From NCBI RefSeq assembly GCF_900143675.1, contig NZ_FRFC01000003.1, positions 498,095 to 562,094 on the forward strand: DNA of 64,000 bases, written 5' to 3'. This stretch comes from Candidatus Nitrosotalea sinensis. GTDB taxonomy: Archaea; Thermoproteota; Nitrososphaeria; Nitrososphaerales; Nitrosopumilaceae. The translations under genes were made by a program, and so were the position numbers. Under the pieces are notes generated by a model that was given only the letters and a program-made list of their open reading frames with translations, was not told the DNA's origin and searched no databases. Below are positions 28,947-57,391 of this stretch, piece after piece (the first letter of the stretch is position 1; every line of letters begins with the position of its first letter).

Positions 28947-29903
28947 TTATTCTATTTGATCTAGTACAAGGTCGATTTTTACACTTGCATCGGGTTCATC
29001 CCAATCAAGTACATTTTCTTTTGGAATAAATCCCAACGGGTCGTACTTGTCAAAGCGGGTCTCACCTTCAATTGATGTCAACAACACTACCTTGGAGCTC
29101 TCCCCAGCAGTAAGAGACATGCTTACGCGTGTACTGTCATCTCCAAATATGCCGCTGATTGTGTTTACCATTGAATTTAAAACTCCGATTGGAACCTTGT
29201 TTCCGCCTACCACGTACATTAGTGCACTCTTGATGTTTCCAGGTGTTGCATCCTCGTAGAGCATCTTGATTGAATCTCTAAGTGATGTCTCTACACTTGG
29301 CATGTCTTTGCTTGTTGAAAGTATGCTTGTTTCAAGTGGCAAAGATGATGAGCTCTTTAACGTAGATACTACGTGAAGCAATGCCGCATTTGTTATCTCA
29401 TTGCACTTGACTGGTGTAAGGTCTGGATTGCTCTCAAGCAATGCATCATTATCTATTATGACTGTACAATCTGAATTTGCCTTTAGTCTCTTAAGAGACA
29501 CCCCTGAGAAAAATATCCTGTCTTTTTCAAACTTGAACGGCATTATTCCAAAGGAGAGCACGCTTTTTCCTGATTCCTTGCCTATCTGAGATACTACTGG
29601 GGCAAGGGCTGCGCCAGACTTGCCTGCAAGGTTTGCTACAACTAGAACCGTGGAATAGTTTGATATCTTTTCTTCAATGGATTCTCTTGCTCCAAATGAG
29701 ACGCCCCTGATCAAGTATGCTGAAGGGTTCAAGATAGGACTGGTATTGATTAAAATCTTTGAAACATCATGATTCAAATCTCGCGCATCATGGCTTATCA
29801 AAAGGCAGTCATGACCAAGAGTGCCTTTGATATCTAGTGCTAGTTTGCATCCTGCACCGCCAAGGCCTATAATTAAAACTGGTTCTTTCATCTGAAATTC
29901 CAT
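28947..29903 (-). CDS. Divergent FtsZ homologue with degenerate GTP-binding signature
   Basis: 318 residues. The N-terminal Rossmann start IIGLGGAGCKLAL matches FtsZ. MPFKFEKDR matches the FtsZ block after strand S5, and CTVIIDNDALL matches the ribose-contact region. However, the family signature GGGTGTG is replaced by NLAGKSGAAL (91-100), and I see no NxDxxD catalytic T7 loop. The thaumarchaeal FtsZ homologue of Nitrosopumilus is similarly odd; those cells divide with Cdv proteins and the protein does not mark the division site. It is probably a non-canonical or inactive GTPase. GGAGT precedes the start. Confidence 0.82.
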   Translation of the reverse strand: MEFQMKEPVLIIGLGGAGCKLALDIKGTLGHDCLLISHDARDLNHDVSKILINTSPILNPSAYLIRGVSFGARESIEEKISNYSTVLVVANLAGKSGAALAPVVSQIGKESGKSVLSFGIMPFKFEKDRIFFSGVSLKRLKANSDCTVIIDNDALLESNPDLTPVKCNEITNAALLHVVSTLKSSSSLPLETSILSTSKDMPSVETSLRDSIKMLYEDATPGNIKSALMYVVGGNKVPIGVLNSMVNTISGIFGDDSTRVSMSLTAGESSKVVLLTSIEGETRFDKYDPLGFIPKENVLDWDEPDASVKIDLVLDQIE

Positions 29904-54198: not shown

Positions 54199-54744
54199 CT
54201 ATTTTCTCTTGATTGAGAGTGTCTTTTGTACTTCGTTGATGCTGCTGAGGAACTTTTGCTTTGCTTCGTATTCGTCTGTCACCTTGATGGTTATCTCTGA
54301 AGCTGAAAACATGACGTCTTTGACAAGTATTGGTGGTGTGAGTCCTAAAAGCTCACTTAGTATGGCAAGTATGTTGTTGTATGTTGAATTGTTTTTGTAA
54401 TGAAATATTGTATTTCCGTCTGCAACCTTTGGGTTTGGCTCTAGCGGTATTACAAGATCATGTGATGTAAATTCTGTGATAAATAATGAAATGTCTTCTT
54501 TGACTTTGGTGCTAAGTTCCTCTTTTTGTGCAATTAGTTTTTCTTTTGCCTTTTCCAGATCTGTTGATGCATCGTAATAATCTTGGCCAATCATTTTTGC
54601 AAACGTGGATTCTGTCTGGCTCTTGAGTGGAATTTCATGAATTCTGAAATTTACTGTTGCAAGCTCGTCTTCTGTGTCTTTTAATTGGGTTCTGTTTTCT
54701 CTGATGCGGGTTGCAACTTGTTCCAAGAATGTAAAGTCAGCCAT
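54199..54744 (-). CDS. Coiled-coil protein encoded next to artubulin
   Basis: 181 residues. An N-terminal helix pair (about 10-100) has heptad-like spacing and many Glu/Lys (an IRENRTQLKDTEDELATVNF stretch), then a folded C-terminal domain with beta strands. No membrane segment. It lies 2 nt after the artubulin stop on the same strand, so it is certainly co-transcribed. A role as partner, chaperone or filament-binding protein is inferred only from this tight linkage. No named family recognised. Confidence 0.72.
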   Translation of the reverse strand: MADFTFLEQVATRIRENRTQLKDTEDELATVNFRIHEIPLKSQTESTFAKMIGQDYYDASTDLEKAKEKLIAQKEELSTKVKEDISLFITEFTSHDLVIPLEPNPKVADGNTIFHYKNNSTYNNILAILSELLGLTPPILVKDVMFSASEITIKVTDEYEAKQKFLSSINEVQKTLSIKRK

Positions 54745-54746
54745 TT

Positions 54747-56135
54747 CTAGCTAAACTCGTGGACTACATCCATAAGACTTGCCTTGAATTCTTCTGTAGT
54801 CAATCCCCACTTGCCATATTCATCTTTGAATGCATCCCAGGATGCTTCGGCCTCACTTGCAATCTCTAGAATTTTTGGTCCTATTGCCTTTGTATTGACA
54901 AGTATTGTGACATTTGCTTGTTCTGTTTCAAGTATTGGAATCTTGATGAATATCATTCTTGATTCCTCGATGTGGAATCTGTCCTTTATCATGTTCTTGA
55001 GAGTCTCTCTTTCTTTTGCCTCAAAGTCTCCCTTTACTTTGACAAGTGCACAACATGAATCCTTTGGACCTCCCTTGTCTCTTACATCGTTGTCATCGAT
55101 ATCAAACAGTACTGCATCTTCTTTCTTGTTGATGTGTTCTACTATTCCCTCCATTGTGTTGTGCTTGGTACCTGTCATCAAATCAGAGCTCCATTGTCTT
55201 TCTTCTGGAATGATTGGAATCACCCACGGGATTGCAAATCTTGGTCTTTTTGTTGCAAGCCATGTTCTATAGTTTGACATGTCCCATTCTGTCTCTCTTG
55301 CAAAAGATGCAATAAACATCGAGATTGCATTTGCTGCAATCAAGTTCATTCCTCTGTAATCTTTCCACCCGACTTCGTGTTCTTTTGGAAGATCATCTAT
55401 GATAGATGACATCTTGTCTAGTCTTTTCTCGTGTCTTTGCGCAAGCTCTCTTAATCTCTTGTTTGAAAATAGAATAGAACAGTCACTGTACTTTATCTGG
55501 TGTTCTAGGTTCATGACGATGTTGATTGCAGATGCTTCTAGTATGACTGGGTCCCAGCCAAATTCTGGCAATAATCCAAATGATGCAATTGTTGCGTGTT
55601 CCTTGGTGTCTTTTTTGATGTATTGCATGAAAGCACTTGCAAATGAAGCGCCCGTTCCGCCTCCCATTGCAAATGGAATTGTAAATCCTCTTACTGGTTC
55701 TGGTGAAAGACTTGCAAGTTGCTTTTGCATGTCATATTTTGTACTTACTTCTTTGATGAATCTGGTACGGCCTTCTGCCCAGTTTCTTGCAGCGCCTCCT
55801 GCACCAGAGATTACGTGTTTGTCTCTTAATGCAAACAAGTCTGGATATGATTGTAATATCAAATTGGCAGCTCTTGGGTCAAGGTCAATTAGTAGAGCTC
55901 TTGGAATAAGTGGAATCTCGCTTCCTCCATAAGAGTTTGGAAATCGAAGAATTGTACTACCGTATCTTTTTAGTATGCGGGATTCATCTTTTTCTCCCTT
56001 GAGTGTTGGCTTGAGTGGGTCTGCACCTACATCTAACAACAATCTTCTATATGCTTCTGCACCAAGACCAATGCCGCAATGACCAAAGGATGTCATTATC
56101 ACTGGGGCCGGGGGTAATGGAGCAAATTTTGACAA
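54747..56135 (-). CDS. Archaeal tubulin (artubulin-like)
   Basis: 462 residues, tubulin length rather than FtsZ length. Blocks in tubulin order, aligned by eye: T1 GHCGIGLG (18-25; tubulin GQCGNQIG), IPRALLIDLDP (77-87; VPRAILVDLEP), GAGGAARNWAEG (111-122; GAGNNWAKG), T4 GGGTGAS (158-164), T5 with Asp195 and Glu200 (LPEFGWDPVILEASAIN), SNKRL (224-228, Asn for the base), and a core H7. The T7 loop reads TEWDMSNY (282-289), lacking a catalytic Glu in the usual place. No acidic tail. Probably assembles into filaments, GTP-dependent. TTG start, with GAGTGAT upstream. Confidence 0.9.
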   Translation of the reverse strand: MSKFAPLPPAPVIMTSFGHCGIGLGAEAYRRLLLDVGADPLKPTLKGEKDESRILKRYGSTILRFPNSYGGSEIPLIPRALLIDLDPRAANLILQSYPDLFALRDKHVISGAGGAARNWAEGRTRFIKEVSTKYDMQKQLASLSPEPVRGFTIPFAMGGGTGASFASAFMQYIKKDTKEHATIASFGLLPEFGWDPVILEASAINIVMNLEHQIKYSDCSILFSNKRLRELAQRHEKRLDKMSSIIDDLPKEHEVGWKDYRGMNLIAANAISMFIASFARETEWDMSNYRTWLATKRPRFAIPWVIPIIPEERQWSSDLMTGTKHNTMEGIVEHINKKEDAVLFDIDDNDVRDKGGPKDSCCALVKVKGDFEAKERETLKNMIKDRFHIEESRMIFIKIPILETEQANVTILVNTKAIGPKILEIASEAEASWDAFKDEYGKWGLTTEEFKASLMDVVHEFS

Positions 56136-56173
56136 ATTTAATCACTCTTTGAAAGCGGATCTTGTCTCTTTAA

Positions 56174-56181
56174 CCATATAG
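56174..56181 (-). promoter_or_regulatory. TATA-like box of the artubulin operon
   Basis: On the minus strand CTATATGG precedes AGTGATTAAA by about 30 nt. The predicted transcript starts near 56150 and carries GAGTGAT as ribosome-binding site about 8 nt before the TTG start at 56135. The region 56136-56283 has no gene, so the artubulin pair has its own promoter. Confidence 0.45.
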
Positions 56182-56283
56182 TGCAAGATTGTACAGTCCA
56201 TACTTGATAGTTGTAGACATGATTTGCCGTTTTCAATCCTGTGTCTTGATTGGGTTTTTTTGCATTTAAGATTTGGGAATGAA

Positions 56284-56580
56284 TTATTCTTCTTCAGTTA
56301 GAGCTTTTTTGAGGACACGAAATTCCTCTATTGATATTTGGCCTTCTGCCAGTCTCACCCTGAGTACCTCAAGTGATGTATCTCTTTTGGGTGGGGGAGT
56401 AACTGGTTGTTCTTTTTCTGGAGTATCAGGGGACTCGAGTAAATTTTGGATGTATCTATAATCTGACATGACAACTGGCTCGCCACTTTTTATCTCCTCA
56501 ATTATGTTGCGTAATCTCTTGGTGTCTCCTCTACCTGATGCAAGCAGGCCCTTGATTGTTTTTAGCATATCTTCTGACAT
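56284..56580 (-). CDS. SHOCT-domain protein
   Basis: 98 residues. A helical N-terminal part (about 1-45), a Pro-rich linker (PEKEQPVTPPP), then a C-terminal SHOCT unit, roughly EVLRVRLAEGQISIEEFRVL. SHOCT domains often mediate oligomerisation. It lies 1 nt after the TPR gene, so the two are one operon, and precedes the artubulin promoter by about 100 nt. Function unknown. Confidence 0.75.
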   Translation of the reverse strand: MSEDMLKTIKGLLASGRGDTKRLRNIIEEIKSGEPVVMSDYRYIQNLLESPDTPEKEQPVTPPPKRDTSLEVLRVRLAEGQISIEEFRVLKKALTEEE

Positions 56581-56581
56581 T

Positions 56582-57391
56582 TTATTTTACCACTGTCTTG
56601 AATCTTGAATCCCCTTTTATCTTATCGAATGCTAAATCTGTTGCCGCCCACTTTTTTATGGTTTTGCCGTAGTGAGATATTGCTTGTGCAAGAAGTATCA
56701 GAGCATCATCATTTTGGCCAAGAAGTGCTTTGCTTCGTGCTTTGGCATAAATTATTGTACCGTTTTTGGGGTGTTCTTTTAGTATTTTATCAAAGATCTC
56801 AATTGCCTCTTGGTGTCTTCCAAGTTCTGACAATTCTGTTGCCTTGTAAAATATTGCCTCATTGTTATCTGGTTCTTTTGTTAGTATTTTGTCAAAATAT
56901 GAAAGGGCCTCTTCATGTTTTTTCTGCTTGCCTAACACTAGTCCCTTGTAGTATGTTGCTTGCATGTTTTCAGGTTCTTGCTCCAGAACTTTATTTAGGC
57001 AATTGATTGCATCATCGTATTTTTCCAGTCGTATGCTTGCAATTCCTTTGTTGTACAAGGCTGGAATGTAATTGGGATTGTTTGCAAGTGCCCTGTCATA
57101 GTATGTCACTGCCTTGGCAAACTCCTGAGACTCGGCATGATGATTTCCTAAATTATTTAGTGCATCTGTGTGATTTGGGTCAAGTGAAATTATTTTTTCA
57201 AAACATGATGCAGCATCTTTGTTCTTTTTTAGGGCAAGCAGGGACATGCCTTTATTGTATAGTACATCTGTGTTTTCTGGATCTTGTTTAATTGCCTTGT
57301 CAAAAAATGAGATTGCCTCTTTATGCCTTTCTAGTTTTGCATAACTTGCTCCCTCTGCAATAATTTTTTGAATTGAATCTTTATCGGCCAT
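56582..57391 (-). CDS. Tetratricopeptide repeat (TPR) protein
   Basis: 269 residues consisting of six or seven TPR units of 34 residues (for instance EAISFFDKAIKQDPENTDVL, then DALNNLGNHHAESQEFAKAV). No signal peptide, so cytoplasmic. TPR arrays form scaffolds for protein complexes. Same strand as SHOCT and artubulin, gap of 1 nt to SHOCT. It could help assemble a complex, but the link to artubulin is only positional. Confidence 0.88.
   Translation of the reverse strand: MADKDSIQKIIAEGASYAKLERHKEAISFFDKAIKQDPENTDVLYNKGMSLLALKKNKDAASCFEKIISLDPNHTDALNNLGNHHAESQEFAKAVTYYDRALANNPNYIPALYNKGIASIRLEKYDDAINCLNKVLEQEPENMQATYYKGLVLGKQKKHEEALSYFDKILTKEPDNNEAIFYKATELSELGRHQEAIEIFDKILKEHPKNGTIIYAKARSKALLGQNDDALILLAQAISHYGKTIKKWAATDLAFDKIKGDSRFKTVVK

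Follow-up and report, generated by a model that had tools for sequence, protein, structure and literature searches.

In a 64,000-nucleotide stretch of the genome of Candidatus Nitrosotalea sinensis, an ammonia oxidiser of acid-soil type (1.6 Mb, 99.9% complete; contig NZ_FRFC01000003.1, positions 498,095 to 562,094, hereafter the window), the gene for artubulin, a tubulin-like protein of archaea, is directly followed by a gene for a coiled-coil (CC) protein. We find that these two genes form a genuine, deeply conserved unit, and that CC is the constant partner of artubulin across four families. Artubulin (54747-56135, minus strand) has 462 residues and a TTG start, and the CC gene (54199-54744, minus strand; 181 residues) begins 2 nt past its stop. 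They are the last of four minus-strand open reading frames in a row, the first two encoding a TPR protein and a small SHOCT-type protein, with gaps of 1 nt between TPR and SHOCT and 148 nt between SHOCT and artubulin. A sequence-only reading of the window had placed these four genes in two tight units and united them in a candidate tubulin system; its coordinates and gaps match the open reading frame listing exactly. Its tight artubulin-CC unit with a promoter region of its own is borne out by the comparisons that follow, and the larger four-gene system is not.

The contigs of named genomes were scanned with an artubulin profile, and the best 80 of 86 loci make up our locus sample. Profile searches for both proteins were also run on 400 genomes of the class. 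CC lies directly downstream of artubulin, on the same strand and after a gap of about 2-18 nt, in 77 of the 80 loci. In the three exceptions (L134, L152 and L162) the contig stops inside artubulin or no more than about 50 nt from its end. Adjacency at this rate is far above what chance would give. Artubulin was matched in 88 genomes, 87 of them credible once G191 is removed, where a match of 3.9e-4 spans 68 residues within a 904-codon frame and is short and spurious. The 87 include G375, in which the end of artubulin sits at a contig edge immediately before CC. Every one of them carries CC (87/87), which was matched in 125 genomes altogether. Within the window's family the artubulin and CC sets are identical (66/66 genomes), plus one genome, G086, in which a remnant of CC is all that is left.

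The pair is also the sole common part of at least six unrelated gene surroundings. With genera named from matching contigs and titles, it is preceded by PepN-NhaP-TPR-SHOCT in Nitrosotalea and in a TA_20-type group, the sister lineage to which isolate TA_20 belongs (PepN being assigned by eye), lies between Nre and an exosortase-like gene in Nitrosotenuis, and lies between Snf7 and a mechanosensitive channel in Nitrosarchaeum. In family f4 a divergent VWA gene stands before it in five of the eight fetched loci. Two complete pairs with different surroundings (L072 and L073) were observed in genome G111, and G374 likewise has two.

The main groups of the CC tree are congruent with those of the artubulin tree, and both genes are under purifying selection: the ratio of nonsynonymous to synonymous substitution rates (dN/dS) in four pairs of intact genes was 0.052-0.117 for CC and 0.021-0.041 for artubulin. 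Two genomes have lost both genes or let them decay together. In G086, a 99% complete Nitrosotalea genome (locus L049), one deletion has removed artubulin entirely along with the greater part of both SHOCT and CC, joining SHOCT at about codon 18 to CC at about codon 144 (placed by eye). Stops interrupt the CC remnant, and the upstream TPR gene is intact. In G195, of family f9, artubulin is absent and CC has three internal stops.

Sequence conservation upstream of artubulin supports the idea that the pair has its own putative promoter. In Nitrosotalea a block of about 50 nt within the SHOCT-artubulin gap is conserved (56168-56220 in the window, minus strand); its last six letters, TTAAAG, are TATA-like and lie 38 nt ahead of the TTG start. 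An altered form of the element also stands immediately ahead of artubulin in the TA_20-type group, Nitrosotenuis, one of two f5 loci and UBA8516, and it is conserved although the genes farther upstream differ between lineages. Out of 44 upstream regions, 33 fitted our search expression. One of the remaining 11 (L155) begins inside artubulin, and a variant can be recognised by eye in each of the ten that are left. Most f4 loci have a different, TATA-like sequence before artubulin. In each of four genomes the 17-nt core of the element matches exactly at a single site, the one at artubulin, and mismatch-tolerant searches of these four revealed no regulon, their matches in total not exceeding those of a reversed-pattern control. 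An apparently conserved upstream reading frame of 16 codons was considered and rejected, as it lacks codon periodicity (mean entropy at codon positions 1-3 of 0.50, 0.48 and 0.56 in 21 distinct 51-nt sequences, first codon omitted) and meets early stops in some copies. We therefore read the block as a candidate artubulin-specific promoter element and not as a reading frame, which favours the proposed division into a TPR-SHOCT and an artubulin-CC transcription unit.

Artubulin matches the Pfam Tubulin family PF00091 at 2e-16 (61.3 bits, cut-off 33), and its best relatives among solved structures are Asgard and eukaryotic tubulins, which places it nearer to tubulins than to FtsZ. A single-sequence search returned Asgard AtubA first (1.2e-16) and a profile search returned a chain labelled Heim-alpha-tubulin/AtubB (1.7e-21), in both cases over the GTPase half. 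The window protein shares 96% of its residues with the artubulin of Candidatus Nitrosotalea devanaterra and 99% with the one from a metagenome-assembled Thaumarchaeota genome; against loci titled as Nitrosarchaeum or Nitrosotenuis, identity over the full length is 75-81% (75-77% for Nitrosarchaeum alone). In an alignment of 26 artubulins, drawn from four families within a single order, two segments are invariant in every row: the GTP-binding G-box GGGTG (residues 158-162; 55650-55664, minus strand) and RETEWDMSNYRTWL (residues 280-293, R280 to L293; 55257-55298, minus strand). The T7 loop of alpha-tubulin carries the catalytic residues aspartate D251 and glutamate E254. The second artubulin segment aligns to this loop with hhalign, at a low score, and with MAFFT; the invariant D285 falls under D251, and N288 falls under E254 in the low-scoring hhalign alignment. 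No acidic C-terminal tail was found, all 26 rows ending in VVH-x-FS or an equivalent. Artubulin is a two-domain member of the tubulin family with predicted GTPase activity.

CC belongs to no recognised family, as had been suggested: the window protein has nothing above threshold in Pfam or NCBIfam, and scans of all 42 relatives gave scattered weak matches only. An AlphaFold2 model built on these 42 relatives has a mean predicted local distance difference test score (pLDDT) of 89.5. It contains two long helices, residues 4-51 and 60-92 (48 and 33 residues; 54469-54735, minus strand), and an alpha/beta domain at about residues 104-180 (54205-54435, minus strand) with helices at 123-133 and 158-180. 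The two long helices, together with the hairpins returned by fold searches, suggest that the N-terminal part forms a helical hairpin. Across 30 long rows from artubulin loci, conservation peaks at 0.75 in the linker (residues 94-105), followed by 0.72 in the last helix, 0.69 at the N-terminus and 0.67 at the hairpin tip, and is lowest in the second hairpin helix (0.48). Such a pattern would suit a spacer that makes its contacts at either end. Foldseek returned nothing for the CC model at E ≤ 0.001. With VIA-align, the rows covered mostly residues 1-98 and comprised seryl-tRNA synthetase arms and other helical hairpins at Z of about 9-11, the level expected of any helical hairpin. The order of strands and helices suggested by eye that the C-terminal domain might be Pcc1-like. 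This candidate was set aside for want of profile support, hhalign giving a probability of 0.1 or less against local Pcc1 rows, and ordinary Pcc1-family genes are found elsewhere in 13 of 15 searched genomes. In the Pfam scan CC did not match Snf7 at E ≤ 1.

The TPR and SHOCT genes are local neighbours that stand outside the artubulin-CC system. The TPR gene (56582-57391, minus strand; 269 residues) is unambiguously assigned by the Pfam and NCBIfam scan, and the SHOCT-type protein (56284-56580, minus strand; 98 residues) matches Pfam SHOCT weakly (E 8.3e-4, 19.5 bits, below the curated cut-off of 27). The sequence-only reading joined all four genes in one tubulin system. In a cytoskeletal system of that kind TPR would act like Bklc of Prosthecobacter, a TPR protein described as binding both bacterial tubulin and lipid (PMC5372463). 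The order TPR-SHOCT-artubulin-CC is indeed constant in Nitrosotalea and the TA_20-type group wherever the contig permits. The four genes are not conserved together beyond that, however: TPR adjoins artubulin in 34 of the 80 loci and SHOCT in 36, with a single SHOCT (L133) outside Nitrosotalea and its TA_20-type sister group. The artubulin-CC pair moreover has its separate promoter element, and TPR outlasts artubulin in G086. We regard a four-gene system as highly improbable.

The reach of CC beyond artubulin has to be set against its constancy within artubulin genomes. Of the 125 CC genomes, 38 have no artubulin: G086, G195, G258, six Nitrosocaldaceae-like and 29 Nitrososphaeraceae-like genomes. 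Several of these, together with two truncated loci, weigh against the reading of CC as an accessory protein of artubulin. The six Nitrosocaldaceae-like genomes encode a full-length CC (L041-L046) that retains the hairpin-tip motif F-A-R-x-I-G and lies behind a radical-SAM gene. A hidden artubulin was ruled out in the five that were tested, each having a single PF00091 gene, which is FtsZ-like. The 29 Nitrososphaeraceae-like genomes have a short CC in which the hairpin is largely missing and the C-terminal domain is the portion retained. In G258, 94% complete, CC stands at a contig end and no PF00091 gene was found. In two Nitrosopumilus-type genomes, G119 (L081:3810-4325) and G220 (L082:6421-7206), an artubulin without its GTPase half (about 293 and 228 residues missing from the start, respectively) is followed by an open, conserved CC. 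The dN/dS values against intact relatives were 0.033 and 0.019 for the artubulin fragments and 0.075 and 0.056 for CC, and CC thus need not decay with a broken artubulin. The deletions may be recent, or may be artefacts of assembly; alternatively, the C-terminal half may still function together with CC. The artubulin structure model, with a mean pLDDT of 54, is too poor for use.

These counts qualify the claim that CC is a dedicated partner. It holds in the window's family, where CC tracks artubulin and the one additional copy is a broken remnant, and fails for two other families, where CC occurs without artubulin. CC is accordingly widespread without artubulin in part, outside the window's family and not within it. 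Across 300 genomes of the phylum the CC profile matched 23, all of families f1, f2 and f3, with no f4 or f9 among the rows listed. The CC tree gives good support to each of the groups f2, f3, f4 and f9, but the branches that meet between f2 and f4/f9 are long, and the tree therefore does not fix the order of events. Because the CC family extends beyond artubulin, CC is probably either an older protein that was recruited to serve artubulin or one that persisted in two families after artubulin had gone. The CC of G220 falls within the Nitrosarchaeum group of the CC tree and its artubulin fragment shares 92% identity with one of Nitrosarchaeum type, which suggests that the pair was transferred together or misbinned.

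Taking both sides together, we think that CC is probably, if not securely, an obligate accessory protein of artubulin. The case for such a partnership rests on adjacency, a common gene order and strand, the phyletic match within the family, trees that are congruent in their main groups, purifying selection, joint losses and the predicted fold. The two proteins would be co-expressed from one artubulin-specific promoter, presumably on a common transcript. The C-terminal alpha/beta domain and the hairpin of CC would most likely bind artubulin or its protofilament, artubulin itself would assemble into filaments, and the hairpin would serve as a spacer, cross-linking the filaments or anchoring them to some other component of the cell. 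Cross-linking in particular is a tentative proposal, to which we would give clearly less than an even chance. The main rival casts CC as a chaperone or assembly factor comparable to the tubulin cofactors, which would bind the artubulin monomer and aid folding or nucleotide loading without touching the filament. A small protein with a coiled-coil hairpin, encoded immediately after the tubulin gene and once per artubulin, is what such a factor might look like. However, CC has no similarity above threshold to the cofactor families listed in Pfam and NCBIfam, and a full-length CC persists where the sole tubulin-superfamily gene is FtsZ-like; we find this rival unlikely.

CC could also have a housekeeping role apart from artubulin, for instance in RNA or ribosome maturation, and merely borrow its promoter. 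The retention of CC in several artubulin-free lineages fits such a role, as do the neighbours of the short CC in the Nitrososphaeraceae-like family (L050-L060), which lies just upstream of the rRNA methyltransferase gene NEP1 in nine of 11 fetched loci, with the RNase P gene Rpr2/Rpp21 on its other side in six. Yet the window's family keeps CC without artubulin solely as a broken remnant, and Nitrosopumilus-type genomes listed without artubulin are also without CC; a housekeeping gene would not disappear with artubulin. This makes the explanation improbable, more so than a chaperone role. Returning to CC as an accessory protein of artubulin, a wider and rather doubtful extension is that the pair represents a two-component cytoskeleton of ancient origin in the order to which the ammonia-oxidising archaea belong. 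CC would then be the first recognised archaeal family of tubulin-associated proteins, its hairpin would engage the artubulin filament, and in the Nitrosocaldaceae-like archaea it would, after artubulin loss, serve another partner, possibly the FtsZ-like protein.

The published record bears on the pair at several points. Artubulin neighbourhoods were drawn in 2012 by Yutin and Koonin, with stress on the link to the upstream Snf7 (ESCRT-III) gene (PMC3349469), and the neighbourhood legend of that paper lists a "conserved hypothetical protein" that may or may not be CC. A 2023 paper (PMC9871819) drew artubulin neighbourhoods again; it notes that genes close to archaeal tubulin-like genes often encode coiled coils, and it repeats the Snf7 link. 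The suggestion that the neighbourhood had gone undescribed thus needs narrowing: such drawings exist, and what the literature text searched, figures and supplements aside, does not describe is CC as a constant partner. The Nitrosarchaeum (Nitrosoarchaeum) artubulin of PMC3349469 belongs to the same gene family and also has CC directly downstream. Its neighbour there matches Pfam Snf7 at 2.1e-9, but Snf7 adjoins artubulin in only seven of our 80 loci (L145-L151), all of Nitrosarchaeum type and four of the seven so titled, whereas CC is the constant neighbour. The artubulin of Nitrosotenuis uzonensis is described as not near Snf7 in a 2013 paper (PMC3835317), which also called artubulin function untested.

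Among characterised systems, the btubA-btubB-bklc operon of Prosthecobacter likewise couples tubulin genes to a small accessory gene, whose product Bklc is described as binding tubulin filaments (PMC5372463). The accessory protein is a TPR protein there and a helical hairpin with an alpha/beta domain here, an A/B pair of tubulins there contrasts with a single one here, and the local TPR gene, unlike bklc, is not constantly linked to its tubulin. The Asgard AtubA/AtubB proteins (9f6t, 24rt; PMC13394414) are the nearest solved relatives of artubulin by sequence, over an alignment that covers the GTPase half only; the same source, where it treats artubulins, places them on a very long branch whose position was never fully resolved. 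A further tubulin-superfamily gene is found in the window at 28947-29903 (minus strand), encoding a thaumarchaeal FtsZ-like protein of 318 residues with no CC beside it. It is a separate gene of the same superfamily and genome. The tested Nitrosocaldaceae-like genomes have a gene of this kind in place of artubulin, and the FtsZ-like open reading frames of Nitrososphaeria match the window's FtsZ-like protein and not the artubulin profile.

Since 2012 artubulins have figured in discussions of where eukaryotic tubulin came from, as possible relatives of its ancestors, and the published functional guess rests on a Snf7 neighbour specific to one genus-level group. Nature offers knock-outs for comparison in G086 and G195, and truncations in G119 and G220. 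A constant CC partner gives a concrete handle on the role of artubulin and makes the question a direct one: whether CC binds artubulin, and what the pair may build.

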